Virus record (IMG/VR): IMGVR_UViG_3300033145_001019 | Span: 1-21,683 of that record | Source of the DNA: a virus | Reading direction: 5' to 3' (one strand) | Length of the DNA stretch: 21,683 nucleotides | Part shown: piece by piece, positions 9,503 through 21,683 of the stretch | Layout: each line of letters opens with the position of its first letter | Numbering within the stretch: the stretch's first letter is position 1 | Translations under genes and position numbers: made by a program | The notes under the pieces: model-generated | Seen by the model: only the letters and a program-made list of their open reading frames with translations | Databases searched by the model: none | What the model was told of the DNA's origin: nothing

Positions 9503-9512
9503 TTCTTAGATA

Positions 9513-9539
9513 CCCTTTAACAAATTATTTGCCATAGGA
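9513..9539 (-). repeat. 27-bp dyad repeat, copy 3
   Basis: Core CAAA-N3-TTTG, minus-strand end TTTGTTAAAGGG followed by TATC. It overlaps the last five codons of the small membrane-protein gene (TAA at 9527-9525) and supplies the likely SD of the fibre gene starting at 9502. Confidence 0.85.
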
Positions 9540-9701
9540 TAGGACAATACTAACTAACATCCCACCAAGATTAAAAACTAACAAAGTAATAACCACATAA
9601 AATCTATTGTCCATAGTATTAATTCTTTTCCACACAGCAATAAACTCCTTTTCTAAAGATTCTATTTTTTCATCGTAGTATTCTTTATTAAAAGCGATCA
9701 T
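9525..9701 (-). CDS. 58-residue single-span membrane protein, holin/XhlA-like
   Basis: Short gene starting ATG at 9701, overlapping the terminase stop by ATGA, and ending TAA inside repeat copy 3. The first ~33 residues are charged and helical (KEYYDEKIESLEKEFIAVWK), and residues ~34-55 are one hydrophobic span (FYVVITLLVFNLGGMLVSIV) with a short tail SYGK. A coiled coil followed by one C-terminal membrane segment is the layout of XhlA-type haemolysin/holin accessory proteins, but many unrelated small phage membrane proteins share it. It is far from the lysin gene and next to the large terminase, so a second holin or antiholin is only one option. The coding call is supported by the exact fit between two genes. 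Confidence 0.7.
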   Translation of the reverse strand: MIAFNKEYYDEKIESLEKEFIAVWKRINTMDNRFYVVITLLVFNLGGMLVSIVLSYGK

Positions 9702-11230
9702 ATTAATCTCCAGTCTTTAAATTCCTTCTCGTACTCCTTTTCTAATTCATCATACTCATCTTCAATATCTTCACTCTTCTCAATCGGTGGATTAAAGTAC
9801 CTTTGTCCAAGCTCCATCATCTCAATAACATATGCGAAAGCATCCATAACATCCCATCTTTTACTCCTCGGAAACATCAAGAGTTGCATTTCAAGTAAAC
9901 TTGAACAAGTTGGGTTGTGGTAAATATAGCCTTGTCTGTAAAATGGTACTAATGCACTTATTCTTTTTACCTTCCCTTTTCCACTCTCAGCTGGGCCACC
10001 CCTAGCTTTTAACCAAACTGGCTCAAAGGCATACAAAGGCCCCCGTTTTGTTATCTCATTCTTAATTGGCTGCTTGATAAACTCCTCTAACCCAGTTACC
10101 TCAATTCCTATATTATGGACATTAAGCCTAACCTTCATATCAAACATCTCGTTGTATAGTTCATCTGGATAAAACTTGCCAGCTACACAATCTCTAAAAT
10201 AGATACTACAAGTTTCATAATTAATTCCAGCAGCTATTATTGCACTATCAGCGCTTTGCATTTTAACAGTCTTGGCTGGATCAACTATTATAACAGTTTC
10301 AATAGCATTCTTATCTAACTCAGGTTCATTATAAGATTGGAAAAACTCAGCTCTGAAACTTGCATCAGCAGTTGAAATTGGAAGATTTCTATACTCTCTG
10401 AAAAGAACATCAAGTTGGCCTTTTTCTTCATGGTTCTTTTTCTCAGCCATAATCTCAATCTTATCCATAAACTCAGGAGCAGTTGGATTATAGTCATCAT
10501 CAAAGGCTTCAAGTCTTATTGATTCCCAGTCACTTGAGTCAAGCAACTCTTGCAATAAACTATCTTCATGTTTTAGAGTATCAATATAGATAATTTGCCA
10601 ATTCTTCTCCAGTCGACTTACACACTTAATTAGATCAGCATAGAACCATTCTTTTCTCTTAGCCCTTATCTCATCATTATGGATAGTCTCAGGGTCTTCC
10701 AAATCGTCTACTATAATCAAATCTGGTCGAGCATTTTTATAGAGTAACCCACGAACCTGCTGGCCAGAACCTCTTGGATAAACCAAAGTATCAAACGCAA
10801 CCCAAGCTTTCTTACTAAAACTCTCGTCAATTCCAAAGGCATTCTTGGCCTTCACATTTCCAAATAGACTCTTAATTGCATAATTGCTTGCAAGTTCCAT
10901 CTTTAAGTTTTCAGTTTGAATAATAGCCGAGTCAAAACTTTTACTAACATAGAGTATGAACCTACTTTGTCTGAATAGTATATCCTTCCCGGCCTTACCT
11001 AACCCTGTAATACTTGTCTTACCAAACCCTCTTGGAGCAGCTATAGCAATCTTAGGTGCTCCAGAATCTATCATTTCAAGAATAGGGATGTGGATATTCT
11101 CAGAAAATGGAGCAGTGAATCTCTCAGGGAATATAGTCTTTGAAGTCATCTCTGTGCTTACAGAACAGAGTGCAAGAGTATCCTTTAACTCTTCATCAGA
11201 TTTTATTTTTTCAAAGTCTAAGTTATCCAT
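9698..11230 (-). CDS. terL: Terminase large subunit (packaging ATPase and nuclease)
   Basis: A 510-residue motor protein that cuts phage DNA and drives it through the portal. N-terminal ATPase: Walker A 'AAPRGFGKTS' at residues 64-73 and Walker B 'LIIVDDLED' at 171-179. C-terminal RNase H-like nuclease: three expected acidic residues are visible, D317 in 'IIVDPAKT', E377 in 'IGIEVTG' and D463 in 'WDVMDAFAY'. The full set and length are normal for the family, so the protein appears intact. Its start overlaps the previous stop as TAATG, and its stop overlaps the small membrane-protein start. Unusually, it lies ~9 kb downstream of the small terminase, separated from it by lysis, glycan and fibre genes. 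The acidic tail (SEDIEDEYDELEKEYEKEF) is long. Confidence 0.95.
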   Translation of the reverse strand: MDNLDFEKIKSDEELKDTLALCSVSTEMTSKTIFPERFTAPFSENIHIPILEMIDSGAPKIAIAAPRGFGKTSITGLGKAGKDILFRQSRFILYVSKSFDSAIIQTENLKMELASNYAIKSLFGNVKAKNAFGIDESFSKKAWVAFDTLVYPRGSGQQVRGLLYKNARPDLIIVDDLEDPETIHNDEIRAKRKEWFYADLIKCVSRLEKNWQIIYIDTLKHEDSLLQELLDSSDWESIRLEAFDDDYNPTAPEFMDKIEIMAEKKNHEEKGQLDVLFREYRNLPISTADASFRAEFFQSYNEPELDKNAIETVIIVDPAKTVKMQSADSAIIAAGINYETCSIYFRDCVAGKFYPDELYNEMFDMKVRLNVHNIGIEVTGLEEFIKQPIKNEITKRGPLYAFEPVWLKARGGPAESGKGKVKRISALVPFYRQGYIYHNPTCSSLLEMQLLMFPRSKRWDVMDAFAYVIEMMELGQRYFNPPIEKSEDIEDEYDELEKEYEKEFKDWRLI

Positions 11231-12588
11231 TAGTGGATATACCCTCCAGTTATAGTCACTGTCGAATCATATTCACCACTATATTCATATGCTCCTATGT
11301 CCCAAACACCATCTACACCTCTTGTAACTCCATCAGGATCAACATCATAAGGTGAGCCAATATCTTCGCCAGCTGGCGTTGCTGCCAAAAGATGAAAATC
11401 AAATGTTGCTGTGTCTAAATAAGGATCTCCTGTTCCGGTTGTGGAATTTGCTTCTGTTGGAGTGTCAGATGTATCAAGATACCTGTTATAATCAGAATCC
11501 CAATCTACAGTCCCAATTTCAGCGTCCATATTATATAGTAAATTGTTTCTTGCTTCTAAACCTACACCAGAACCAGGCGCAGAACCCGCATCACCTAACC
11601 ACCAGTCATTTGTTCCGTCACCCGTTAGTGAATTATTATAAACATTTACGTTTACCATCCCGCCTTTAGTTGTAGAATCAACAAATGAATCAAGGCTTAA
11701 ATCAGCAACATTGCCGTATATGTCCATCCCATCCACTGATATATTTAGATCAACTGCCCCACATCTATCATTAAACGAAACTATGCCTTGCCCACCAGCC
11801 GTATCCTCAAATGTACTCCAACGTAATACAATATTTGTATTTTCTGTCCCTGGGCAAGTCCCTGCTGGTTTGAGATTAATCCACTGTGCGTGGACGCCTA
11901 TCGCATTATAGTAATGATTCCTAAACCACAGATATTCTAATATAACATTATTCGCACCGCCTAATACAATTCCATTTGATGCTCGGTCTAATAAAAAATG
12001 GCTAACCACACTATTGGATACTTGTCCTACAACCATTGCTGACAAGATGCCTCGCTGTGCCGCATCAACAGCATCCATAGCTTGGGCCTCAATATAACTT
12101 ATATTATAATTACTCCCCTCACAAAATATTTTATTCTCTTCATTAACGGTTGCGCCCGGTCTTTTTAATAATCTGAAACCATATGTACCAGCCACCCCAT
12201 CAGTTGAAAACTGACCATCTATATCAATATAAGAAGTGTCGAGATGTATATTATTATTAGCGTACGCTGTGCCACCATTATGACCTATATCTGCGATCCC
12301 GTCGTGATCTGTGCTAACGTAACCTGTCTCAGTGCCATGATCCGCAACAGTTGATTTTTTAATTGTAATAATATCAGTAGTAGATACGGCATCATCTATA
12401 ACCCATGTTGCGTAAACACCATCACCAATATAGTATGTGTCCCCTCTTGTAAGCGTAGCTGGCAAATCATCCCACGCATTATCCCAAGCAGAGCCGTCTC
12501 CAGATCCACCGTCAAGGACATAATGATCCGCAGCATAGGCGTTACTTATAAACAACAGCAATACAAGACTAATAAGAAATCGCTTCAT
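11230..12588 (-). CDS. Secreted beta-helix-like protein
   Basis: A 452-residue protein from the preferred ATG at 12588. Two other in-frame starts (12591, and 12606 farther up) exist, but GAGG stands 7 bases before 12588, and this start puts a signal peptide at the very N-terminus (MKRFLISLVLLLFISNAYA). Residues ~20-75 ('HYVLDGGSGDGSAWDNAWDD', then 'LPATLTRGDTYYIGDGVYAT') match the opening of parallel beta-helix proteins found in many environmental phages and bacterial secreted pectin-lyase-like proteins. Irregular beta-helix coils continue to ~400, with 'GAYEYSGEYD' near the end. It overlaps the upstream gene by 20 bases and the terminase start by one. Function is probably glycan binding or cleavage; no active-site residues are identified. 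Base use is CpG-rich relative to the backbone. Confidence 0.75.
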   Translation of the reverse strand: MKRFLISLVLLLFISNAYAADHYVLDGGSGDGSAWDNAWDDLPATLTRGDTYYIGDGVYATWVIDDAVSTTDIITIKKSTVADHGTETGYVSTDHDGIADIGHNGGTAYANNNIHLDTSYIDIDGQFSTDGVAGTYGFRLLKRPGATVNEENKIFCEGSNYNISYIEAQAMDAVDAAQRGILSAMVVGQVSNSVVSHFLLDRASNGIVLGGANNVILEYLWFRNHYYNAIGVHAQWINLKPAGTCPGTENTNIVLRWSTFEDTAGGQGIVSFNDRCGAVDLNISVDGMDIYGNVADLSLDSFVDSTTKGGMVNVNVYNNSLTGDGTNDWWLGDAGSAPGSGVGLEARNNLLYNMDAEIGTVDWDSDYNRYLDTSDTPTEANSTTGTGDPYLDTATFDFHLLAATPAGEDIGSPYDVDPDGVTRGVDGVWDIGAYEYSGEYDSTVTITGGYIH

Positions 12589-13294
12589 CATCAATCCTCG
12601 CTTCATCAAAAATTATTACATTTGACGCTGGTACGCCACCAAGATTAATACGCTCTGCTTGTGCGGTATCAGATGTATTTACTATTTCAGCGACATAAGT
12701 CCAAGAAGAAAACGGCAACGTACTATACCCTGTACGAAAATATCCATCTGCACCACTCCCGTTATCGTATTCAATCAAAAATACATAATCTGTATCCGGT
12801 TGCAAATTAATATCAACAGTGCTTGTATTGGAAGCACCCCCATTGTAATACATTCTGTGTTCGTAATGATCTGTGTCCCATAATAGTCGTAAATAACCTA
12901 AAGTTGTATTTGATGAATCGGCAAGGAGCAAAGGCCCATTTGTGGTAGTGCCATTATTACCACTGGGGAGATGAATCATGCAGGTCGCAAAAATTTTACT
13001 GTCAGTTCCAGTAAAAGAAGCTCGTCGCCTTGCTCCTGAGCCAGCATAAACAGAAGCAGCGCCAAGAAGGGGTGCAGGAGCAATAGAATAATTTTCTGTC
13101 CATGTTCCGGAAATAACTTCCGTCCAAGTATTGTCGGCCGAGCCTCCATTAAATGTTTCTTCAAATATATACGATGGGGCTGCGCCACCAGCAGACCCAG
13201 AAACTATAATATTACCAGGAGAAAAAGTAACTCCTGCATAAGAATTACAGTATGTAAGTAGAGTTAGTATAAATAATAAAAATATCTTTCTCAC
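12569..13294 (-). CDS. Secreted concanavalin/LamG-like protein
   Basis: A 241-residue protein. An upstream TTG at 13306 is in frame, but GGAG lies 6 bases before a GTG at 13294, one base after the previous stop, so GTG is chosen. The N-terminus is then MRKIFLLFILTLLTYCNSYA, a signal peptide. The remainder ('YIFEETFNGGSADNTWTEVI', 'TDYVFLIEYDNGSGADGYFR', 'NVIIFDEARIDDEAIS') has the layout of a laminin-G/concanavalin-like jelly roll: an early 'FEETFNG' strand, a central WD/YEH segment and a final 'FDEARIDD' strand. Such domains bind carbohydrates. Together with the overlapping beta-helix gene it may form a glycan-recognition pair. Like that gene it is CpG-rich, suggesting that the two were acquired together. 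Confidence 0.7.
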   Translation of the reverse strand: MRKIFLLFILTLLTYCNSYAGVTFSPGNIIVSGSAGGAAPSYIFEETFNGGSADNTWTEVISGTWTENYSIAPAPLLGAASVYAGSGARRRASFTGTDSKIFATCMIHLPSGNNGTTTNGPLLLADSSNTTLGYLRLLWDTDHYEHRMYYNGGASNTSTVDINLQPDTDYVFLIEYDNGSGADGYFRTGYSTLPFSSWTYVAEIVNTSDTAQAERINLGGVPASNVIIFDEARIDDEAISY

Positions 13295-13295
13295 A

Positions 13296-15308
13296 TTAAT
13301 CTCCAACTGTTGATGTATATTCCATCTTCATACCAAGAAAATGAAGTGTTGCAACTGCTGTAGTTGTTCCTCCAGCATCCATCTGCCACCTAAAATAAAG
13401 AGTGTCTCCACCAGCACAAGTTCCATTAGGTGTTACAGCTGCAGAAGTTGTATGGTCTACTGCGTTAGAGCCAGTTACTGCAGCATCATCAATAGCTGCT
13501 TCAGCACTCCAAGTATTATTTACAGTTTCTGTAGCTCCCCTACACATAGCAGCTATATCACTATTTAAAACATCAGTATCTGCTGCTGTTTGTAAGTATT
13601 CAAGCTCAAATGTAACTGTACCACCATTCCAACTATCTGGCATTACAATATGGCCATATAAAGAAGATGCATCATTGTCTGCACATATTGCAGTGTAATC
13701 TAAAGGACCTGAATTTATCTGAACTGCTGTTGAACTTATTTCACATTGAGTACCATCTGGAACCATACCTGCAGCATTCCAAACTACTGACTCAACAATA
13801 TCTACAAGTACATCATCATCTTTACAATAAAATAAATCAGCAGCAGCATCATAACTTACAACTTGATCATCTGTACAACCTTCAGCAGTAGCTGCTACCA
13901 TATCAACAACATGACGGATGTTATTACTATCATACCAACGAAGTGCACCATCTGTATGATTTGCAACAACGGTATCTAATCGTAATTGACCTAGTACAGC
14001 AGGGGCTGCATTACCATTAGGAATCTCCAAACTTGTTGCAGCGCCAGCATCTATTACACCACCAACAGTTGAGAGAGTAATAGTTTCAGCACTCATATTA
14101 ACTGGTATTTGTGGTACTATTTCGTTATCAGAGCCGTCTATAATTATTGCAGCAGTTGGAGTTCCAGCATCCATATAAGTAAGTGTTACATCTGAATCTT
14201 CTGCTCCGTCTGTGGTATCAGTCATATTTGAGCTAATAGAGCCAGAGAACTTGTCAGCACCAAGACCATCTGAATCATGAAACTCGTGAGTTGGAGTAGC
14301 ACTTGGATCAACTGTAAGTGATTTAACTCCAGTATCCCCATCAGCATCTACAGTCATACCACCTGCGCCAGCATCAAAGGTACCTACACCAGTCATATTA
14401 TCAGCATCATCAATAGCTATACCAGTATCTTGAATTCCTTTAGCTCCGCCATCTCCTCTGACAATTGTATGATCTGTCATAACAGCAGCAGCACTTACAT
14501 CTCCAGCACCAGCTGGAGTTTCAAATGTTGGAGCTACTGCTGGCCCATTAGACATTAGGTACTCTCCATCTGCCCCAAGAGCAAGTTCAGTAACATCTCC
14601 ATTTGTATCAGAGTAGAATACTCTCCAAGCTGTCTGATCTACAAACTCAGTTAGGTTAGTGTACCCACCTGGAATTGGCTGAAGATCAAAATACCCACTA
14701 CCTCCAGACCAATTATAAGTAACAACTTCTCCTTCATCACCGGCTTCAAGATCACCTTCACTTGCATCTAGATCAATCAGTATCTTGATCTCAGTACTAT
14801 CATACCAAGTCATTCCACCATCTTCTAGCCCAGTAATAGTATTGTCATAAAGTAACTCACCAACAGCATTAGGTGAAGCATTTTGATTATTGAAGGTAAC
14901 TTGTGGAGTATTTATATTAGTTGTGAAGGTAGGATCATCTGAGAATACAGATAATAGTGTCCCAGTTTCATCATTTAAAGCAGCTATTAATCCAGCTGAA
15001 TTAACAAGCTCTCCCTCATGTGCAGCATCGGCAGCTACTATAGAGTAGAAATCAACTCCAACTTCTAAATCCCACAGACCCCTCATAGCAGCATAATTAG
15101 CTGCAGTTACTGTAGCTTGACCATTAGCTGAAACAACTATTTCATTAGTTAAAACTGCATTAGCAATACCAACTAAATATTGCGCATTAGTTGGAGCACC
15201 TCCTCCACCGCCTACAGCAGGAACTGATCCATAAGGAGTAAACATCATCCCATAAGATGTTGTACAACAAAGTATGAAGAGGAAAACTGTTAAGATTATT
15301 TTTTTCAT
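13296..15308 (-). CDS. Long fibre-like protein with signal peptide
   Basis: A 670-residue protein with a signal peptide (MKKIILTVFLFILCCTTSYG) followed by a Gly-rich spacer (AVGGGGGAP, residues ~31-39). Much of the rest consists of short repeated fibre-type phrases: 'NASPNAVGELLYDNTITGLE' and 'NAAPAVLGQLRLDTVVANHT', each followed by a W/RWYDS segment, and 'DHTIVRGDGGAKGIQDTGIA', a phrase widespread in phage tail-fibre or appendage proteins. The C-terminal ~150 residues include four Cys in 'GTQCEIS', 'AICADND', 'AAMCRGA' and 'NGTCAGG', which could pair if the domain is exported. AAGGAGG stands 4 bases before the ATG. It lacks a visible chaperone domain or lectin signature. A fibre or adhesin role is inferred. 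Confidence 0.75.
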   Translation of the reverse strand: MKKIILTVFLFILCCTTSYGMMFTPYGSVPAVGGGGGAPTNAQYLVGIANAVLTNEIVVSANGQATVTAANYAAMRGLWDLEVGVDFYSIVAADAAHEGELVNSAGLIAALNDETGTLLSVFSDDPTFTTNINTPQVTFNNQNASPNAVGELLYDNTITGLEDGGMTWYDSTEIKILIDLDASEGDLEAGDEGEVVTYNWSGGSGYFDLQPIPGGYTNLTEFVDQTAWRVFYSDTNGDVTELALGADGEYLMSNGPAVAPTFETPAGAGDVSAAAVMTDHTIVRGDGGAKGIQDTGIAIDDADNMTGVGTFDAGAGGMTVDADGDTGVKSLTVDPSATPTHEFHDSDGLGADKFSGSISSNMTDTTDGAEDSDVTLTYMDAGTPTAAIIIDGSDNEIVPQIPVNMSAETITLSTVGGVIDAGAATSLEIPNGNAAPAVLGQLRLDTVVANHTDGALRWYDSNNIRHVVDMVAATAEGCTDDQVVSYDAAADLFYCKDDDVLVDIVESVVWNAAGMVPDGTQCEISSTAVQINSGPLDYTAICADNDASSLYGHIVMPDSWNGGTVTFELEYLQTAADTDVLNSDIAAMCRGATETVNNTWSAEAAIDDAAVTGSNAVDHTTSAAVTPNGTCAGGDTLYFRWQMDAGGTTTAVATLHFLGMKMEYTSTVGD

Positions 15309-15317
15309 AGTTCCTCC

Positions 15318-15710
15318 TTAGTTATTATACTCAGCTGTTACTTGCAAAACTGCAGCACTTGCTCCAGTCTCACTAGTAAATTGAAAAGTTCTAATCATAC
15401 TTCTATTTACAATCCTTAAGCTTTGCTGAGCATACAAGATATGGCCTTGGCCATTACCAACTCTACTTGGATTACTCCCACCAACAGTCCACCTTATAGG
15501 ATTAGTCTCACAAGTAAAAAGCACAGCAGAGACTACTTTGTTATCAGCTCGATTTATAATCCAGCCTGGGAGGGATTGAACTGCATCAGTTGAGACAAGT
15601 ACTCTAGTGGGAGCCACATTCACACCCTGGACTGATAAAACTTCATCCAAAGCAAAACTTGAGCTTGTTACTAGAATAAACGCTAGAATTAAAAATAATC
15701 TCTTTATCAT
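15318..15710 (-). CDS. Small secreted protein of unknown function
   Basis: A 130-residue protein. A longer reading starting at a TTG (15728) exists, but AAAGGG of repeat copy 4 stands exactly 7 bases before the ATG at 15710, which also begins a clean signal peptide (MIKRLFLILAFILVTSSSFA). The mature part of ~110 residues is beta-rich ('RVLVSTDAVQSLPGWIINRA', 'GHILYAQQSLRIVNRSMIRT') and resembles small virion or appendage proteins in overall character, but I recognise no family. It begins a run of four consecutive signal-peptide genes and is separated from the next by 9 bases, so it is likely co-translated with the fibre-like gene. Confidence 0.72.
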   Translation of the reverse strand: MIKRLFLILAFILVTSSSFALDEVLSVQGVNVAPTRVLVSTDAVQSLPGWIINRADNKVVSAVLFTCETNPIRWTVGGSNPSRVGNGQGHILYAQQSLRIVNRSMIRTFQFTSETGASAAVLQVTAEYNN

Positions 15711-15717
15711 TTTATCA

Positions 15718-15744
15718 CCCTTTAGCAAAACATTTGTTATAGCT
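15718..15744 (-). repeat. 27-bp dyad repeat, copy 4
   Basis: The core is preserved on the minus strand as CAAATGTTTTG, followed by CTAAAGGG. The outer left arm is the most degenerate of the seven (AGCTATAA), so the arms pair poorly while the AAAGGG side is intact. It overlaps the last codons of the deacetylase gene and supplies the SD of the gene at 15710. Confidence 0.78.
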
Positions 15745-16375
15745 GACTGAAGGTCAATACTTCAATAAGATCCTTACACTCAGTTAAAGCTTTAAAAACT
15801 CTTCCCCAATCCTCAAAATTAAAATCACACTTACCATGCCCATATAAGCAAAATAACCAATTCTCGCTTACAGCTTTACTAACCCAACTTTTCACTGCTT
15901 CATCTGGAGTTCGGTCACTTACATCTCTTGGTAAATTTATTCCACTTATCATTAATAAATCAGTCTCTTCAACACTCTTTGGTCTACCAAACATTCTTCT
16001 AGAAACAACCCTACCATACTTAAACCTAGCTGCTTTAGCAACATCTAATACAGCTAAATCAATAGATCCATATGGGTAAACTATAGTATTGCATTCTTTG
16101 CCCAGAATCTGTTCTAAAATATTTTTACTAGAAACGAGTTCTTTAGATATAGTATCACGATTCCTCTTTGTTAATTCAATATGTGAGGTACCATGGCAAC
16201 AGACCTCATGGCCTTCATCTGAGTAGACTTTCATAATGTTTATTCTTTCTTTATTTAGCCCTATCAAATCAGCAGCCAAGCAAACCTTAAAATCTACTTT
16301 ATCAGCTATTTCACAAAGTTTACCCCAGTAATGGATATTTCTGCTATCATCAATCGTTAAGATACATTTTGCCAT
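15737..16375 (-). CDS. NodB-type polysaccharide deacetylase (carbohydrate esterase 4)
   Basis: A 212-residue enzyme expected to remove acetyl groups from an N-acetylated sugar polymer using a divalent metal. The NodB motifs are visible: motif 1 'LTIDDS' with D9/D10, motif 2 'HGTSH' with metal-binding H61 and H65, motif 3 'YPYG' around P101, and a late 'LYGHG' with H180 as the likely catalytic-pocket His. Length suits a single-domain cytosolic enzyme; no signal peptide is seen, unlike bacterial peptidoglycan deacetylases, which favours a role on a precursor or on phage-borne sugar. The start overlaps the upstream glycosyltransferase by 19 bases, and AGGA lies 3 bases before the ATG. It is the last gene of the glycan cassette. 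Confidence 0.85.
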   Translation of the reverse strand: MAKCILTIDDSRNIHYWGKLCEIADKVDFKVCLAADLIGLNKERINIMKVYSDEGHEVCCHGTSHIELTKRNRDTISKELVSSKNILEQILGKECNTIVYPYGSIDLAVLDVAKAARFKYGRVVSRRMFGRPKSVEETDLLMISGINLPRDVSDRTPDEAVKSWVSKAVSENWLFCLYGHGKCDFNFEDWGRVFKALTECKDLIEVLTFSQL

Positions 16376-17289
16376 TGTTCCTGAATCTCCTCAAAAGTAA
16401 ACTTAGCATTATCCTTTATCCATCTTTTTTCGCCTTCCCCAACTAATCTAATATTGTGAAGTGACCTTTCACTAAAGTCCTCAAACCTTTTAAGTCTTCT
16501 CTGAATCCTTTTAACCCTTTGTTGTAACAAAGTTTCTCCACCCAGAATATATCCAGCTACTAAAATCCCCATCCATCTACCACCTTCATGAGTTCTTGCA
16601 TACTCAGAAGTTCTGCAAAGAAAAGGGTCTCTCTTAAATGGGCCTATGTGAATTCCAGCAAAGTTCTCAACCAGGTAATTTACTTTACCAAAGAGTAAAC
16701 TTTTAATTCCCATATAAGCGTCTCCACCACCCCAAGAATACTTCTCCTTGGCAAGTGTTCCATACCCTTGAATCTCTTGGTAAAGACTTTTCTTCATCCC
16801 AAATGGAGCACCTCTAAATGGTATTTTTCTACAATTCCAACCTACTTCTCTAAACTTAACTGCCATAAAGGTTCTGATATCCCTTGAGTGATAAGCGTCA
16901 ATCTCGGTGTCCATATGGTAGATTAATGGCCCGTAAACTATCCCAACTTCATCCCCTTTGGCAAATGTTTTGTTAAAGGAGACAAATGCCCCTCTACTTA
17001 ACATCATATGGGAGTCAAGGATTATTATGTAATCTCCATTAGCAACTTCAACTCCTTTATCACGAGCGGAGAAAATACAACTAACACTTTCTTTTAAAAG
17101 CTTTATCTTACCTTCTACTATATATTGTACATCAATCAAGTCCCCAATGTTTAAACCGTCTTTGTCTGAGTTATCAACTATAACTATCTCAACCTTTCCA
17201 TCAAAGCCCTTAGCTTCTTCAAGCAAACTCCTCACTGTGAAGAGGCAGCCAATAGGATCATTTCTAGTTGAGATAACTACACTAATCAT
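16357..17289 (-). CDS. GT-A family glycosyltransferase, paralogue A
   Basis: A 310-residue family-2-like transferase that would move a sugar from a nucleotide donor. 'MISVVISTRND' opens the Rossmann-like fold; nucleotide-site residues are D39 in 'VIVDNSD' and the metal motif is 'LDSH' at 91-94 (Asp-Ser-His in place of DxD). The acceptor/catalytic region shows 'SWGGGD' ending at D190 and 'GIHIGPF' with H214. TTG at 17301 is in frame, but the ATG at 17289 with GGAG 5 bases upstream is preferred; it overlaps the previous stop as TAATG. It shares LDSHM, SWGGGD and GIHIGPF with the next gene, so the two are tandem paralogues. A 27-bp dyad repeat copy lies inside the frame, coding residues ~104-112. 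Confidence 0.88.
   Translation of the reverse strand: MISVVISTRNDPIGCLFTVRSLLEEAKGFDGKVEIVIVDNSDKDGLNIGDLIDVQYIVEGKIKLLKESVSCIFSARDKGVEVANGDYIIILDSHMMLSRGAFVSFNKTFAKGDEVGIVYGPLIYHMDTEIDAYHSRDIRTFMAVKFREVGWNCRKIPFRGAPFGMKKSLYQEIQGYGTLAKEKYSWGGGDAYMGIKSLLFGKVNYLVENFAGIHIGPFKRDPFLCRTSEYARTHEGGRWMGILVAGYILGGETLLQQRVKRIQRRLKRFEDFSERSLHNIRLVGEGEKRWIKDNAKFTFEEIQEQWQNVS
16954..16980 (-). repeat. 27-bp dyad repeat, copy 5, inside a coding region
   Basis: CAAA-N3-TTTG core followed on the minus strand by CCAAAGGGG. It is wholly within the glycosyltransferase frame, where it is read as SFNKTFAKG. The matching part of the paralogous gene lacks it. Being inside a gene, this copy cannot serve only as an SD for the next start. 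Confidence 0.8.
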
Positions 17290-18239
17290 TACTTCTCCCA
17301 AGGTTTGTTCTTAAGATATTCTTCAAAACTCATAACTTGACTCTGCAGCAGCCTCTTCCTATCAACTCCACCAAGAGTCTTTGCCAACCCAAGATACTTG
17401 ACAACTGAAAACCAAGGCCAATTCTTCTCAATAGCTTGGGTATTTCTCTTAACAGCTTCAACCCCACCCAAGACATATAGAGCCACTAGGTAACCTGTTA
17501 AGGTTGGATACTCCCCACTCTTTGCATAAACCCTATACTTATTTCCATCCTTTCCATCTACATTCGGGAATGGCCCTATATGGATTCCTGGACTGGTTGG
17601 TATAGCCCAATTCTCAAACCCAAGCAACCAAGGCTTAGTTCCAATTAAGATATCTCCACCGCCCCAACTTACCTTATTAGCCGACAGTGCTCCATACCCA
17701 CCAAGTGTTCGAAGGAACCAATTTCTACGGCATATCCAAGGCATACCTTTCCAAGTAATCTTTCTTTCAACATCATATAGGGTATTCCAATCTCCCAGTT
17801 CACAACTGGTTACATCTCTATCATGCTTAGCCCTACTCTCATGTTGATGTGCCCAACCAATAGGAGCATGGCCAAAGCCAAGTTTTGGGTCATCCCTGTG
17901 GGAGTTCATGAAGTCAACCATATCCTTGAACATGTTATAGCCAACTAACATATGAGAATCTAAACAAGCGATGTATTGACCCTTAGCACGCTCGGCCCCG
18001 AGTTCCCTAGCTGTGAAAAGACAAGGGAAATCTTGGCGGATTAGTTGAATTTTACCCTCTTCAATATATTTACTTGGTAAGGCACTTTTAACCATCTCAT
18101 AAAACTTTTCATCAGAGTTATCTACAACAACAACTTCTCCACCACCGCTTACAGCTTTAAGAGCTTCAATACAGCTTCTAACTGTAACTGCTAACATAGA
18201 GACATCATTACGATTTGAGATAATGACTGATAGTTTCAT
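17289..18239 (-). CDS. GT-A family glycosyltransferase, paralogue B
   Basis: A 316-residue enzyme of the same type as its downstream neighbour: 'MKLSVIISNRND' at the N-terminus, D40 in 'VVVDNSD', 'CLDSHM' with D94-S95-H96 as the likely metal site, 'SWGGGD' ending at D196 and 'GIHIGPF' with H220. It differs in a longer middle section (residues ~115-165, 'GWAHQHESRAKHDRDVTSCE') where acceptor choice may lie, and in a Trp-rich C-terminus. The pair probably adds two different sugars, or sugars at two successive steps. The start overlaps the methyltransferase stop by ATGA, so translation is coupled. No membrane anchor is seen, so action in the cytosol is expected. Confidence 0.88.
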   Translation of the reverse strand: MKLSVIISNRNDVSMLAVTVRSCIEALKAVSGGGEVVVVDNSDEKFYEMVKSALPSKYIEEGKIQLIRQDFPCLFTARELGAERAKGQYIACLDSHMLVGYNMFKDMVDFMNSHRDDPKLGFGHAPIGWAHQHESRAKHDRDVTSCELGDWNTLYDVERKITWKGMPWICRRNWFLRTLGGYGALSANKVSWGGGDILIGTKPWLLGFENWAIPTSPGIHIGPFPNVDGKDGNKYRVYAKSGEYPTLTGYLVALYVLGGVEAVKRNTQAIEKNWPWFSVVKYLGLAKTLGGVDRKRLLQSQVMSFEEYLKNKPWEK

Positions 18240-18889
18240 ATCTTAGTAAACCTCACTATAACTCTATCTTGTCTAGCCCTTGGTACATCTGGGTAAGCGA
18301 TAATACTATGGAAATACTTGAAGCCACAACTCATCATAACCCCAGTCCAATACTCTATATTATCATACTGGTCTAGCCCGCATTTGATTATAAAGTTTTT
18401 GGTATTCTTAGCTAGTTTTTGGATGAAACCCACTTGGTGCCGAGCGAGCTGAGATCTCATTTTGAATCCATGTTTTTGAACTCCAATGTATCTAAGAACC
18501 GAAATGGCAAAGACATAGTCCCAATCTTGGCCTAATTCCAACTCGTCAACAAATCCATCAAGTATTGTATACTCCCCCCTAAAAAATTCTTTTACAAAAT
18601 AGGCTTGCTTCAGCCACTCTGGTTTGCTCTCAACACCAAATGCGAAGGCTCCTATATCCGCAGCTTTCTTACAAAATAATCCAGCGTTGCAGCCAATGTC
18701 CAAGATAAATTTATCTTCAATTGATTCTCTAATCAGCTCTTGGTGAATGTTTAGAAATAGTTGATCGGTAGTTACCAACTTATCAGTAGTCCAAACTCCA
18801 CCTAAGTTGATCCTCTGATGCCAGCCCTTGTTAGTTCCACTCGTCTTTTCAAGTTCCTTAATCTTCTTTTTGATTCCTTCTTTATTCAT
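18236..18889 (-). CDS. Class I SAM-dependent methyltransferase
   Basis: A 217-residue enzyme with the SAM-binding loop 'FILDIGCNAG' at residues 61-70 (D64-x-G-x-x-x-G) and an acidic residue at the end of the second strand (E87 in 'AFGVESKP'), as expected for a class I fold. Residue ~110-135 'FVDELELGQDWDYVFAISVL' fits motif II/III. The N-terminal ~50 residues ('GWHQRINLGGVWTTDK') probably bind substrate. Placement between a sulfotransferase and glycosyltransferases suggests that it methylates a sugar, but a lipid or peptide target cannot be excluded. The start overlaps the sulfotransferase stop by 8 bases with GGTGGGG in front; the stop overlaps the next gene by ATGA. Confidence 0.85.
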   Translation of the reverse strand: MNKEGIKKKIKELEKTSGTNKGWHQRINLGGVWTTDKLVTTDQLFLNIHQELIRESIEDKFILDIGCNAGLFCKKAADIGAFAFGVESKPEWLKQAYFVKEFFRGEYTILDGFVDELELGQDWDYVFAISVLRYIGVQKHGFKMRSQLARHQVGFIQKLAKNTKNFIIKCGLDQYDNIEYWTGVMMSCGFKYFHSIIAYPDVPRARQDRVIVRFTKI

Positions 18890-19637
18890 ATCCCCACCTT
18901 TTTAATTTCTTTTTAAACTTCTTAGATAATCTATCTTCCATATTCGGTAACTCGGTTTTCCAAGTATCTAAATGAGTTGGCTTATACTCATGACCTTCGA
19001 TACTTAACTTACCAATTCCTAAAAACCTGCTAATCTGCCTGATAGTCTTCTTTGGATCAGCTACTGCATCTTCATACCTAACCACATGAATTCTATCCTT
19101 AAGACTTTTACAATTAAGATTCCTCTCAAGGTATTCACAACCCTCTAACCAAAGATGCTCAGCACTGGGAATTGACTTGGCTATAAAATTGGCTCTAGAT
19201 TTACCACCTTTAAACAGCCGAATTTGGGAAGCTATAACTGCTCTACCATCCCTCAAGCAGAATATAAACTTCATATTTGGAAATCTATTAGCTATCTCAA
19301 TGGTGAAATAGAGATAATGTCTTGGGAGTTTATCACCGAAGTATTTAAGATTTGGGAGTTTTTTAGTTACAAAGTTTGTTACACTTTTGCCGTTTGTAAT
19401 CTTGCTGACTGTTTCTATATCCAGGTTATGTTTTTTAAACACTGCACTAGATGCTCTATTTGGGTTCATCTTATGTTTCATCAAGAGTGGGCCTATCGGA
19501 TGCCGCCAACAGCGAAAGATTCTAAACTCCCTAGTAATAAACAAACTACCATCTATATTGAGCAAGTCAGTGAGTGCAGTTGTTCCACTTCTAGGACACC
19601 CTCCGATAGCTATAAATGGTAGTTCTTCCAGTTTCAT
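18882..19637 (-). CDS. PAPS-dependent sulfotransferase
   Basis: A 251-residue enzyme of the carbohydrate/protein sulfotransferase type, which would transfer sulfate from PAPS. The 5'-phosphosulfate loop is 'GGCPRSGTT' at residues 12-20, and the 3'-phosphate motif 'FCLRDGRAVIASQ' has R129 and S137. 'YFGDKLPRHY' (99-108) has the basic residue often near the active site. Length is normal for a stand-alone phage or bacterial enzyme. The start overlaps the upstream stop as TAATG, with AAGGA 6 bases upstream. Phage genomes carrying sulfotransferases are not common, and here it starts a five-gene glycan cassette, so a sulfated sugar is the simplest product. A TPR or membrane segment is absent. Confidence 0.88.
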   Translation of the reverse strand: MKLEELPFIAIGGCPRSGTTALTDLLNIDGSLFITREFRIFRCWRHPIGPLLMKHKMNPNRASSAVFKKHNLDIETVSKITNGKSVTNFVTKKLPNLKYFGDKLPRHYLYFTIEIANRFPNMKFIFCLRDGRAVIASQIRLFKGGKSRANFIAKSIPSAEHLWLEGCEYLERNLNCKSLKDRIHVVRYEDAVADPKKTIRQISRFLGIGKLSIEGHEYKPTHLDTWKTELPNMEDRLSKKFKKKLKRWGYE

Positions 19638-19810
19638 TATTTATCCTTCAATGGTTTCTCTGTAAAAAATCTAAGAAAAAAGTTACCAAGAGTTATAATT
19701 GCTGTAACTGCTTCAACTGGAATAACGACTCCACAAGTAGTTAAGATAGTTACTACCGCTCCAGCTAATACGTTAAAATTAATAGTCTTACTTTTAAAAA
19801 TACTAAGCAT
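19637..19810 (-). CDS. 57-residue holin-like membrane protein
   Basis: Gene from ATG at 19810 to TAA at 19639-19637, filling the gap between lysin and sulfotransferase. After a short basic start (MLSIFKSKTIN) residues ~13-44 form one or two closely spaced hydrophobic segments ('NVLAGAVVTILTTCGVVIPV', then 'EAVTAIITLGNFFLRFF'), ending in a short charged tail (TEKPLKDK). Such very small proteins ending in 'LRFFTxKPL' recur in phages next to lysins, where they are usually called putative holins. AAGGTAAAGAAG precedes the ATG. Directly after the lysin (5-base gap), it is the best holin candidate in the window. Confidence 0.75.
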   Translation of the reverse strand: MLSIFKSKTINFNVLAGAVVTILTTCGVVIPVEAVTAIITLGNFFLRFFTEKPLKDK

Positions 19811-19815
19811 CTTCT

Positions 19816-20112
19816 TTACCTTCCTTTCGGATCATACTCCACGTGAAATATATCCCTGTTATCAGTGTATTCAACTACATCAAAATCCTTATCCAAACAC
19901 TCAACTACATCCTTCTTGGGAATACCTTGTCTACTAAAATCCAAAGCGTTCTCTTCATAGTGGCAGCTATGCCCCAGGTGATTACCTTCCCCAATAGAAG
20001 TTATGTAGAAATCCTTATCGTTGTTGTTATATAGAGTAATTAGTTTCCCTTTAGCCCTTCTCATATTGGGGGATAGGTTACCAAGTACACCTTGTTTAAT
20101 CCATACAGTCAT
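19816..20112 (-). CDS. Small M15-like peptidase, probable lysin
   Basis: A 98-residue protein, numbered from the ATG at 20112 (another in-frame start at 20136 overlaps the small terminase; AAGGA with 8-base spacing favours 20112). It has S49-C-H51-x(4)-A56-L-D58, matching the S-x-H-x(4)-A-x-D zinc motif of M15 D,D-carboxypeptidase-like peptidases, and a final 'FHVEYD' with H90 as the third ligand. These enzymes cut peptide cross-links in peptidoglycan, and phages use them for lysis. At about 100 residues it is near the lower limit of the family and has no cell-wall-binding domain or signal peptide, so it would need the holin next door to reach the wall. A processing role in virion maturation is the alternative. 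Confidence 0.78.
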   Translation of the reverse strand: MTVWIKQGVLGNLSPNMRRAKGKLITLYNNNDKDFYITSIGEGNHLGHSCHYEENALDFSRQGIPKKDVVECLDKDFDVVEYTDNRDIFHVEYDPKGR

Positions 20113-20116
20113 CTTC

Positions 20117-20629
20117 TTATTCCTTCTCCATTTCAATTATAGTTCCATTATTTCTTGCTAATGCTTTTCCTCTAGCCTTAAGTGCTTCTATCTCGTCAAG
20201 ATCGAAATGCCCCACCAGATGCTTTCTCGGTGCCTCATGTCCGCCTAATTCTTTAACTATCGTATCAGCAGTAGATTTTCTGAGACTCCAGCTAATTCGC
20301 TCGTCTTCAGCCCTTAGAATTTCCCGATAGGTTTCAATCGCCACTGGCTCTAATGACTTAATCTCCTTTGCCACATCTAACGTATCAGCATCCCTAGCCC
20401 CTCTCATTGTCTCTAACTTTGCTTTGCCTAGATCCGAGTTGATAGTGTTAGAAACCGTTTGAGACGTGCAGCCCAGGTAACTAGCAATTTGCGTACCTTT
20501 AAGCCCCAAGACCGACAACCGCAAGATCTCATGAGAAAGATCCCAAAGGTCTTTAATCTGGTGAGTTTTCCTTTCTCCATCTCTTTTCCTTCTCTTATCT
20601 TTACCTTTTTTAATATCTAACCCATACAT
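20117..20629 (-). CDS. terS: Terminase small subunit
   Basis: A 170-residue DNA-binding protein expected to recognise the packaging site and recruit the large terminase. An upstream ATG at 20704 is in frame but lacks an SD; GGAGGT with 7-8 bases of spacing supports the ATG at 20629. The N-terminus is very basic (KKGKDKRRKRDGERK), followed by a helix-turn-helix at ~36-64 ('LSVLGLKGTQIASYLGCTSQ', then 'TVSNTIN'). The C-terminal part is helical ('EIKSLEPVAIETYREILRAE', then 'KSTADTIVKELGG') as in oligomerising small terminases. A transcription regulator with an HTH is the alternative, but first position in the late operon and length favour terS. CpG is frequent (about 7 per 180 bp), unlike most backbone genes sampled. 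Confidence 0.75.
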   Translation of the reverse strand: MYGLDIKKGKDKRRKRDGERKTHQIKDLWDLSHEILRLSVLGLKGTQIASYLGCTSQTVSNTINSDLGKAKLETMRGARDADTLDVAKEIKSLEPVAIETYREILRAEDERISWSLRKSTADTIVKELGGHEAPRKHLVGHFDLDEIEALKARGKALARNNGTIIEMEKE

Positions 20630-20722
20630 TAAAATACCTCCATATAATCCACCATACCACATTAAATGGAAGATGTCAACACCATTAATTTGGGAAACCG
20701 ACATTCTTCATTAACCAACCTA

Positions 20723-20749
20723 CCCTTTAGCAAATTATTTGTTATAGGG
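20723..20749 (-). repeat. 27-bp dyad repeat, copy 6
   Basis: One of the most regular copies (11 of 13 arm positions pair), ending GCTAAAGGG on the minus strand with flanking GATACCC on the outer side. It lies 93 bases before the chosen terS start, so it is not the SD for that ATG. It marks the left border of the gene-free control region and the head of the leftward operon. Confidence 0.88.
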
Positions 20750-20756
20750 TATCATC

Positions 20757-20798
20757 CAACGAAGTTGATTGTTATAGGTTATTTATCAGCGAAGCTGA
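20757..20798. repeat. Pair of mini-hairpins with GAA loops
   Basis: CAAC-GAA-GTTG at 20757-20767 and TCAGC-GAA-GCTGA at 20786-20798, with centres 30 bases apart. The second contains GCGAAGC, a known unusually stable single-stranded DNA mini-hairpin. Confidence 0.75.
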
Positions 20799-20894
20799 AT
20801 GAAATTAACAAATTTTGGGATTTTTAAAAACTATACACCAAAGGTTGAAGAACTAACCCGCCCCTTATCTACGTCATTTACCCCCTACTCGGTT

Positions 20895-20923
20895 TGATGC
20901 ACCTTACAATGGTTGATGCACCT
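20895..20923 (+). repeat. Direct repeat TGATGCACCT, two copies
   Basis: TGATGCACCT at 20895-20904 and 20914-20923, 19 bases apart, each preceded by GGT or GGTT. The short spacing resembles iterons, but only two copies are present. Confidence 0.6.
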
Positions 20924-21015
20924 AGTGGAGTGAGGTTCACCTTCCACCGGTGGACTAGTGGTTTAATTACTAGGTATCAACTAGAGTTGGCATGATAGTT
21001 GCTAGCTGGTGGTGT

Positions 21016-21058
21016 GTATCACATCGATGATACAGTTATGTATCACATCATTTGATAC
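21016..21058. repeat. Tandem GTATCA...TGATAC dyads
   Basis: Two inverted repeats in direct array: GTATCA-N6-TGATAC at 21016-21033 and GTATCA-N7-TGATAC at 21040-21058. Both have CATC after the left arm, and starts are 24 bases apart. Further GTATCA half-sites are at 20749 and 20974, and TGATAC at 21409. This is a plausible binding site for a dimeric regulator or initiator. Confidence 0.7.
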
Positions 21059-21113
21059 ACTATTATCATCATTCAACTAGGTTTGTTGGCATCATTGTTG
21101 CAACGGCATAAAA

Positions 21114-21190
21114 CGTCACATTGACATGGTTTAGGATGTGTAATAATCCCAATGTGTTACCCTAGTTTATTGCCGTTAATCGTCACATTG
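21114..21190 (+). repeat. Direct repeat CGTCACATTG, two copies
   Basis: CGTCACATTG at 21114-21123 and 21181-21190, 67 bases apart. The flanks hold opposed ACGGCA and TGCCGT, which could pair across the interval. Confidence 0.6.
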
Positions 21191-21412
21191 TGGCCTAGAT
21201 TGTCATAATTCATACCGTTTTTAATTCCATTGAATTTGGTAACTAGTTGATATTGTTCACGTTTAATTAATTATGCTAGTTGGCATGCTAGATGCAATAC
21301 ATTATGGTAACATTGACAAACGTGCAACATGGCTAGAATAGTGACACTAGGTGATATTTGTCACGCCTGCTAGTTTGGGTTAACCAGGTTTATTGATAAT
21401 TTATAATTGATA

Positions 21413-21439
21413 CCCTTTGACAAATGTTTTGTAATAGGG
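21413..21439 (-). repeat. 27-bp dyad repeat, copy 7
   Basis: Core CAAA-N3-TTTG; the minus-strand end is TTTGTCAAAGGG followed by TATC, as in copy 3. It lies inside the control region, with no start codon close on either strand, so here it cannot act as an SD. Confidence 0.85.
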
Positions 21440-21462
21440 TGTTAATATCCGATCTAGTGGAT

Positions 21463-21491
21463 TTGACTAGATAACCACTCATGGATATACA
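21463..21491 (+). promoter_or_regulatory. Sigma-70-like promoter for the rightward gene
   Basis: TTGACT (21463-21468) and TATACA (21486-21491) with a 17-base spacer. The -35 box matches the consensus at five of six positions and the -10 box at four of six. Predicted transcription would start near 21498, leaving a leader of ~80 bases. This would be a host-polymerase promoter for the rightward (probably early) unit. Confidence 0.5.
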
Positions 21492-21548
21492 CATAGGGCG
21501 GTGGTGAATAATTAGATTAAACTCTAATTTAGTGGTAATACTCATAAA

Positions 21549-21562
21549 ACAACTAAAGTTGT
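21549..21562. promoter_or_regulatory. Short perfect dyad next to the SD of the rightward gene
   Basis: ACAACT-AA-AGTTGT directly followed by AAAAGGGG, the SD of the gene at 21578. The order (dyad, then A-rich GGG) echoes the 27-bp repeat on the other strand, though the dyad sequence differs. It could hold an operator or a small RNA hairpin. Confidence 0.45.
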
Positions 21563-21577
21563 AAAAGGGGATATACC

Positions 21578-21683
21578 ATGAAATTAGATGATAAAATACC
21601 CGAAGGTACTACGTTAAGTAAGACATGGGGGACGACACCAGAAGGTGGTGACTCAAAGGTTGATAAGGTTAAAGTTGAGGGAG
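21578..21683 (+). CDS. Partial rightward gene of unknown function
   Basis: The only convincing plus-strand gene: ATG at 21578 with AAAAGGGG 7 bases before it, open to the window edge (35 codons). It reads MKLDDKIPEGTTLSKTWGTT, then PEGGDSKVDKVKVEG. This is polar and Lys/Gly/Thr-rich, with no signal peptide; the start is too short to assign a family. It marks the start of the rightward, probably early, transcription unit. Confidence 0.6.
   Translation, partial: MKLDDKIPEGTTLSKTWGTTPEGGDSKVDKVKVEG

Follow-up and report, generated by a model that had tools for sequence, protein, structure and literature searches.

What molecule do five overlapping sugar-modifying genes in the late region of a phage act on? 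A virus record of 21,683 nucleotides (IMGVR_UViG_3300033145_001019), analysed here over its whole length and called the window, is not part of any cellular genome and carries five minus-strand open reading frames (ORFs) at 15737-19637, the end of each overlapping the start of the next by a few bases. They encode a sulfotransferase, a methyltransferase, the glycosyltransferase (GT) GT_A, its paralogue GT_B, and a polysaccharide deacetylase. We propose, with a probability of roughly three in four, that they belong to a phage-encoded mucin-type O-glycosylation system that sugar-coats virion proteins, with finishing enzymes specific to each lineage. A preliminary description of the locus had already named the five glycan genes, and our ORFs and family matches confirmed them as claimed, together with every catalytic motif it quoted. 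Absent from that description were the resemblance of GT_A to polypeptide N-acetylgalactosamine (GalNAc)-transferases and its tracking of mucin-like protein tails.

Identity of the glycosyltransferase GT_A

GT_A matched the Pfam GT2 family PF00535 with an E-value of 3.5e-12 (47 bits against a cut-off of 23.3 bits), and the same family was matched by all 35 GT_A and GT_B proteins that we aligned. The residues D94 and H96 (DSH), W192-D196 (WGGGD), and H220 were invariant across the 35 rows. Over residues 5-224, a profile of these proteins aligned with the catalytic domain of polypeptide GalNAc-transferases (PGANT9, E 9e-8); LDSH lined up with LDSH, WGGGD with WGGEN, and the late histidine of one with that of the other.

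A structure-based search, suggested in the preliminary description, was performed with an AlphaFold (AF2) model of GT_A that had a predicted local distance difference test (pLDDT) score of 91.8. The results showed a glycosyltransferase fold, and polypeptide GalNAc-transferases made up the whole of the 50 best among 365 PDB matches (E from 3e-14, 16-21% identity). Among predicted viral structures, the matches were generic phage GT2 proteins. Both GT_A and GT_B look soluble, and GT_A carries no signal anchor. By sequence and predicted fold, GT_A thus resembles the GT-A-fold enzymes that start mucin O-glycans. We call it GT27-like and do not file it as GT27, because it has WGGGD and lacks both the lectin domain and the anchor of that family.

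Mucin-like tails and their covariation with GT_A

The proposed main acceptor, g136a, has a core predicted with pLDDT >90 to adopt a spike-like fold, and it ends in a mucin-like Thr/Pro tail, GTAAPTTAAPTTASPTTAPQ. The best fold matches of the core were phage tailspike domains and the capsid spike of Pseudomonas phage Pa223 (E 3.5e-4 to 1e-2, template modelling (TM) score about 0.5). Long PTTLAPTT tracts were also found in other late proteins of many relatives.

We sampled relatives independently of the GT, by capsid and by terminase profiles, which replaced a single-sequence terminase scan that gave 3 loci, and counted the contigs that covered the GT locus and held g136a. GT_A and the tail were both present in 20 contigs and both absent in 13; GT_A occurred without the tail in 1, and the tail without GT_A in 0 (Fisher test, 1.5e-8). 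Adding contigs sampled through the GT itself raised the first class to 24 and left the others at 13, 1, and 0. The lone contig with GT_A and no tail, G076, has an ORF with 11 Pro-Thr-Thr (PTT) units within a few hundred bases of GT_A. A tail without GT_A was seen in G063, G069, G070, G074, G089, and G092; these contigs lack a match to the terminase small subunit and therefore do not extend over the GT locus. On a terminase and portal tree of 41 rows, GT_A and the tail each changed 9 times. Five well-supported independent contrasts all agreed in 169 of 200 pairings, four of the five agreed in the remainder, and they were never opposed.

Such covariation could also arise if tails and GT merely travel together in one exchangeable late-gene module, with no enzyme-substrate relation. 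Phage genomes are mosaic and every locus lies in the late region, as that would have it; however, about 15 kb of the window, including the terminase and portal genes, separates GT_A from the g136a tail, most relatives without GT_A keep the g136a core to which the tail is added, and two other GT families are partnered in this way by different proteins. We consider a shared module unlikely.

Within the tracts, every Thr codon and every Pro codon is used (four each), and the spacing is mostly 5 residues; this favours selection at the protein level over recent DNA slippage. Slippage producing low-complexity linkers that are not glycosylated would agree with the repetitive, length-variable nature of the tracts and with the one frameshifted in G003, but not with the mixture of synonymous codons inside them or with the presence of the tail in 0 of 13 GT-minus relatives; we judge it even less probable than a shared module. 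GalNAc-transferases favour Pro at position -1 or +3 of the Thr, and the PTTxA period supplies both. In the scaffold protein, [T/S]xxP motifs were commoner in phages with GT_A than in those without (Mann-Whitney p 0.002); the scaffold-like proteins of relatives without GT_A tend toward Pro/Glu-rich linkers. At 36829-38003 of G003 (L052), a frameshift apparently divides the PTT protein that is intact in G002, reflecting either an assembly error or a variable repeat.

Two further GT groups stood beside mucin-like proteins. In 11 of 11 loci, most of them from close relatives, a PTT protein was immediately followed by a 487-aa protein that fuses a GT_A-like domain to a methyltransferase; G049 and G051, full contigs of this group, gave no matches to the terminase, portal, or capsid of the window lineage. 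The same holds for G011, where a PTT ORF follows the GT_A homologue after 16 bases. In a third GT family, which carries DxH and FGGEE, 57 of 79 loci had a mucin-like ORF, against 1 of 32 control pieces from GT-minus phages; its loci were fetched with its own profile, its three seeds had originally been found through PTT tracts, and the loci are partly non-independent. The mucin-like ORF was immediately adjacent in 50 of 77, an odds ratio of 18.6 over other ORFs. This family (L467-L545, with the GT near 6001-7050 in most, L113, L143, and L177) has at least 472 IMG/VR matches, usually stands right next to Thr/Pro-rich proteins that look virion-like, and is also present in large phages. An assignment of the family to GT27 was rejected, as its sequence profile does not reach GT27, and we call it signature-like only. 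We lean slightly towards the broader view that mucin-type O-glycosylation is widespread among phages, with several GT families of GT27-like active-site signature each having dedicated Pro/Thr-repeat virion proteins as partners in uncultured phages that are unrelated, and with the sugar coat diversified by an exchangeable set of finishing enzymes (sulfotransferase, methyltransferase, deacetylase, and sugar-nucleotide enzymes).

Several observations weigh against the proposed system. The TM-scores of GT_A against GalNAc-transferases are about 0.65, and GT-A folds are common. WGGEN is replaced by WGGGD in 35 of 35 rows, keeping the position and losing E and N, so the donor specificity of GT_A may differ. 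The ricin-type lectin domain of GT27 was not found in GT_A, which gave no lectin family match and has a short helical C-terminus. The virion location of g136a is deduced from gene order and weak matches of a predicted fold. The sign test on the five supported contrasts gave p of about 0.06, above 0.05, because the contrasts are few; the sampled phages are related, so the Fisher values overstate independence; and the tail criterion was set after examples had been viewed, then applied uniformly. Other GT2 genes also occur in the same interval of phages without GT_A. Finally, many PTT-bearing contigs, many of them fragments, have no such GT: among 120 contigs from a DNA pattern scan for four PTT units, a minority carried a GT of these families, and the tracts alone therefore do not imply the system.

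Second glycosyltransferase, proposed finishing enzymes and genomic setting

GT_B is 35% identical to GT_A, retains LDSH and WGGGD, and matched PF00535 (2.4e-10, 41 bits against the 23.3-bit cut-off); it likely adds a second sugar or serves a second set of acceptors. The sulfotransferase matched Sulfotransfer_3 (6e-26, 92.4 bits, cut-off 27), with GGCPRSGTT close to the N-terminus. Its closest solved structures are protein-tyrosine sulfotransferases, and direct sulfation of protein is therefore also possible. The methyltransferase matched NCBIfam TIGR04290 (7e-9), all its Pfam methyltransferase matches falling below the cut-off. The deacetylase matched Polysacc_deac_1 (4e-15, 56.2 bits, cut-off 23.1) and, in the PDB, a peptidoglycan N-acetylglucosamine (GlcNAc) deacetylase (4e-7); it contains HGTSH (HxxxH) and has no signal peptide.

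A scan of IMG/VR with GT_A gave 39 viral loci at 46-58% identity. In most of them, GT_A lies between the terminase small subunit and either the terminase large subunit or spike homologues, as in the window. A GT_B-like second copy follows GT_A in G008, G009, G010, L019, and L033/L035. No homologue of the sulfotransferase or the deacetylase was detectable beside GT_A in any fetched relative, and the methyltransferase had only distant homologues there (L027, L396, L397). The preliminary description had treated the five genes as one unit and named an independent scatter of the genes among relatives as its refutation; by that standard, we dropped the idea. From these comparisons, the cassette appears as an enzyme that many relatives share, a second copy that some of them have, and additions private to this lineage. 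The remainder of that interpretation, namely sugar-modifying genes with the virion as their likeliest target, stands and is strengthened by the g136a tail. GT_A was not found in named or cultured phages at the sensitivity used, and among GTDB genome contigs, searched for a prophage host or cellular source, the one match, at 24%, was irrelevant. By capsid, the closest named phage is Desulfofustis phage LS06-2018-MD01 (48.5%), which has neither GT_A nor g136a.

Between the terminase genes of phages with GT_A, we found sugar-nucleotide short-chain dehydrogenase/reductase enzymes (7), methyltransferases (8), sulfotransferases (2), and an adenosine 5'-phosphosulfate kinase (1); the same interval in phages without GT_A held no epimerases and few methyltransferases. 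The sulfotransferase, methyltransferase, and deacetylase of the window fit this pattern of exchanged end-modifications among phages with GT_A. We considered the epimerase-like genes as UDP-GlcNAc 4-epimerases, but the dTDP-glucose 4,6-dehydratase type fits at least equally well, and we therefore claim no supply of UDP-GalNAc. Proteins combining GT2, radical S-adenosylmethionine, and B12-binding domains, for example at L063:4046-6061, occur between the terminase genes of phages with and without GT_A alike.

A GT2 enzyme with a sulfotransferase, a methyltransferase, and a deacetylase is also a plausible polysaccharide set, and GT_B has a weak GtrB-like PHROG match (E 0.023). GT_A and its neighbours might thus build or alter a host surface polysaccharide for seroconversion or superinfection exclusion, the tails being unrelated flexible linkers; a change of host surface sugars was the alternative offered in the preliminary description. 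The apparent solubility of both GTs, the lack of any GtrA or flippase family match among the window genes scanned, the late structural position, and the tracking of a virion-protein tail by GT_A, with no tail-only case, make this improbable. Glycosylation of phage DNA bases, a hypermodification against restriction, is the least likely explanation. Virus-encoded DNA-modifying glycosyltransferases are known, according to the citation of a 2024 Cell Reports paper in PMC12619734, but a thymidylate-synthase-type enzyme was found in 0 of 29 records with a positive control, and this activity would give no reason for covariation with protein tails. A TET/JBP search gave 0 matches, as did its control.

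The positions of the genes and tracts are listed in Table 1. The families in the window are those of a late phage region (major head protein, portal, terminase large subunit, and tail-spike), in agreement with the preliminary description. The lysis genes that it placed beside the locus were not firmly borne out: the 106-aa gene at 19816-20136 had no Pfam match and no PHROG match of known function, and shows an M15-like His/Asp pattern by eye only. The profile that identified the terminase small subunit also matches the annotated small subunit of OP947158 (2e-41).

Table 1. Genes and sequence tracts of the window
Feature	Position	Strand	Length	Remarks
Major head protein	198-1496	minus		PHROG major head protein, 6.6e-29
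g136a, proposed main acceptor	1525-1935	minus		Between putative scaffold and major head protein
Mucin-like C-terminal tail of g136a	1528-1587	minus		GTAAPTTAAPTTASPTTAPQ; proposed glycosylation sites
Putative scaffold protein	1952-2794	minus		
Thr/Pro-rich stretch within putative scaffold	2564-2710	minus		TEAPGTSAPGTESPGTEAPTTEAP...; possible further acceptor
Terminase large subunit	9698-11230	minus		phrog_38, 1.8e-60; 3' marker of the GT locus
NodB/CE4-type polysaccharide deacetylase	15737-16375	minus	212 aa	TIDDS, HGTSH
GT_B, paralogue of GT_A	16357-17301 (TTG start) or 16357-17289 (ATG)	minus	314 aa as listed	ATG at 17289 likelier than the listed TTG at 17301
GT_A glycosyltransferase	17289-18239	minus	316 aa	DSH, WGGGD
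Class I methyltransferase	18236-18889	minus	217 aa	LDIGCNAG
Sulfotransferase	18882-19637	minus	251 aa	3'-phosphoadenosine-5'-phosphosulfate (PAPS)-dependent type, GGCPRSGTT
Small holin-like ORF	about 19640-19810		57 aa	Directly upstream of the sulfotransferase
Terminase small subunit	20117-20704	minus	195 aa	By homology; 5' marker of the GT locus

Five late proteins, all on the minus strand (5565-8282, 11230-12609, 12569-13306, 13296-15308, and 15318-15728), have N-termini resembling Sec signal peptides, with a basic start, about 12 hydrophobic residues, and small residues, which is odd for phage tail proteins; a spike-like protein of 905 aa is among them. A palindrome-like interspersed repeat, TATAACAAATNNTTTGCTAAAGGGT, lies at gene boundaries (142-166, 2801-2825, 9512-9536, 15717-15741, and 20722-20746), its 5 copies with at most 3 mismatches comparing with 0 expected by chance. 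At 20705-21683, about 1 kb has no ORF of 60 aa or more and contains degenerate direct repeats and a 33-nt inverted pair (20722-20754 and 21408-21440).

Proposed system and comparison with known systems

From the gene anatomy, homology, predicted fold, tail covariation, and non-conserved finishing enzymes observed by computation, we infer the following scheme. Soluble GT_A would catalyse the attachment of a first sugar to Thr residues in the Pro/Thr-rich tails of virion proteins, chiefly the C-terminal tail of g136a and, in relatives, long runs of PTTxA in other late proteins. GT_B would then add a second sugar or serve other sites, and the sulfotransferase, methyltransferase, and deacetylase would finish the glycan in the window lineage. 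All of this would happen late in infection, in the cytoplasm of the host, before assembly into a sugar-coated particle. Candidate benefits are shielding and altered adsorption or diffusion.

Most descriptions of phage virion glycosylation concern a few mycobacteriophages. Our search of the open-access literature, with subscription papers outside its coverage, found no precedent for the pairing of a GT27-like enzyme with a mucin-like virion tail. Here, the pairing of enzyme and acceptor is predictable from sequence and is found repeatedly, across more than one lineage of phages and hundreds of contigs from the environment. The predicted pairing opens the way to direct tests, and GT_A-type enzymes are small soluble candidates for O-glycosylation of defined PTTxA peptides in bacteria. 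The findings also raise the questions of where GT27-like enzymes originated and of what use a sugar coat is to a phage.

The polypeptide GalNAc-transferases of GT27, from animals and Toxoplasma, share with GT_A the GT-A fold, the DSH metal motif, the WGG position, and the late His, and their acceptors, like the proposed phage acceptors, are rich in Pro and Thr. GT_A differs in its 16-21% identity, in having WGGGD and not WGGEN, in lacking the ricin lectin domain and signal anchor, and in being phage-encoded and proposed to act in the bacterial cytoplasm. The chondroitin synthase K4CP (PDB 2z86) gave the best PDB profile E-value (5e-9) and has related GT-A domains; however, it matched over two short domains, is a polysaccharide polymerase, and lies outside the 50 best fold matches of GT_A. 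The GtrB-type glycosyltransferases of O-antigen conversion are likewise phage-borne members of the GT2 superfamily, but the GT_B match to them is weak (E 0.023), a GtrA partner was not seen among the scanned genes, and the window genes have a late structural location.

For mycobacteriophages, virion glycosylation was reported by Freeman et al. (2023, Cell Host Microbe), as cited in PMC12619734 and PMC12691614. According to these citing passages, glycans on the C-termini of virion proteins are linked to phage glycosyltransferases, an arrangement that we also propose for the window phage. There, the modified proteins are capsid and tail-tube subunits, whereas in the window phage the candidate is a capsid-proximal spike-like protein with a mucin-like tail. 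The glycosylation of mimivirus collagen and fibres (PMC4691112) is similar in that the virus itself encodes the O-glycosylation of repetitive proteins on its surface, methylated sugars included, and differs in belonging to a eukaryotic giant virus with a collagen-like acceptor.

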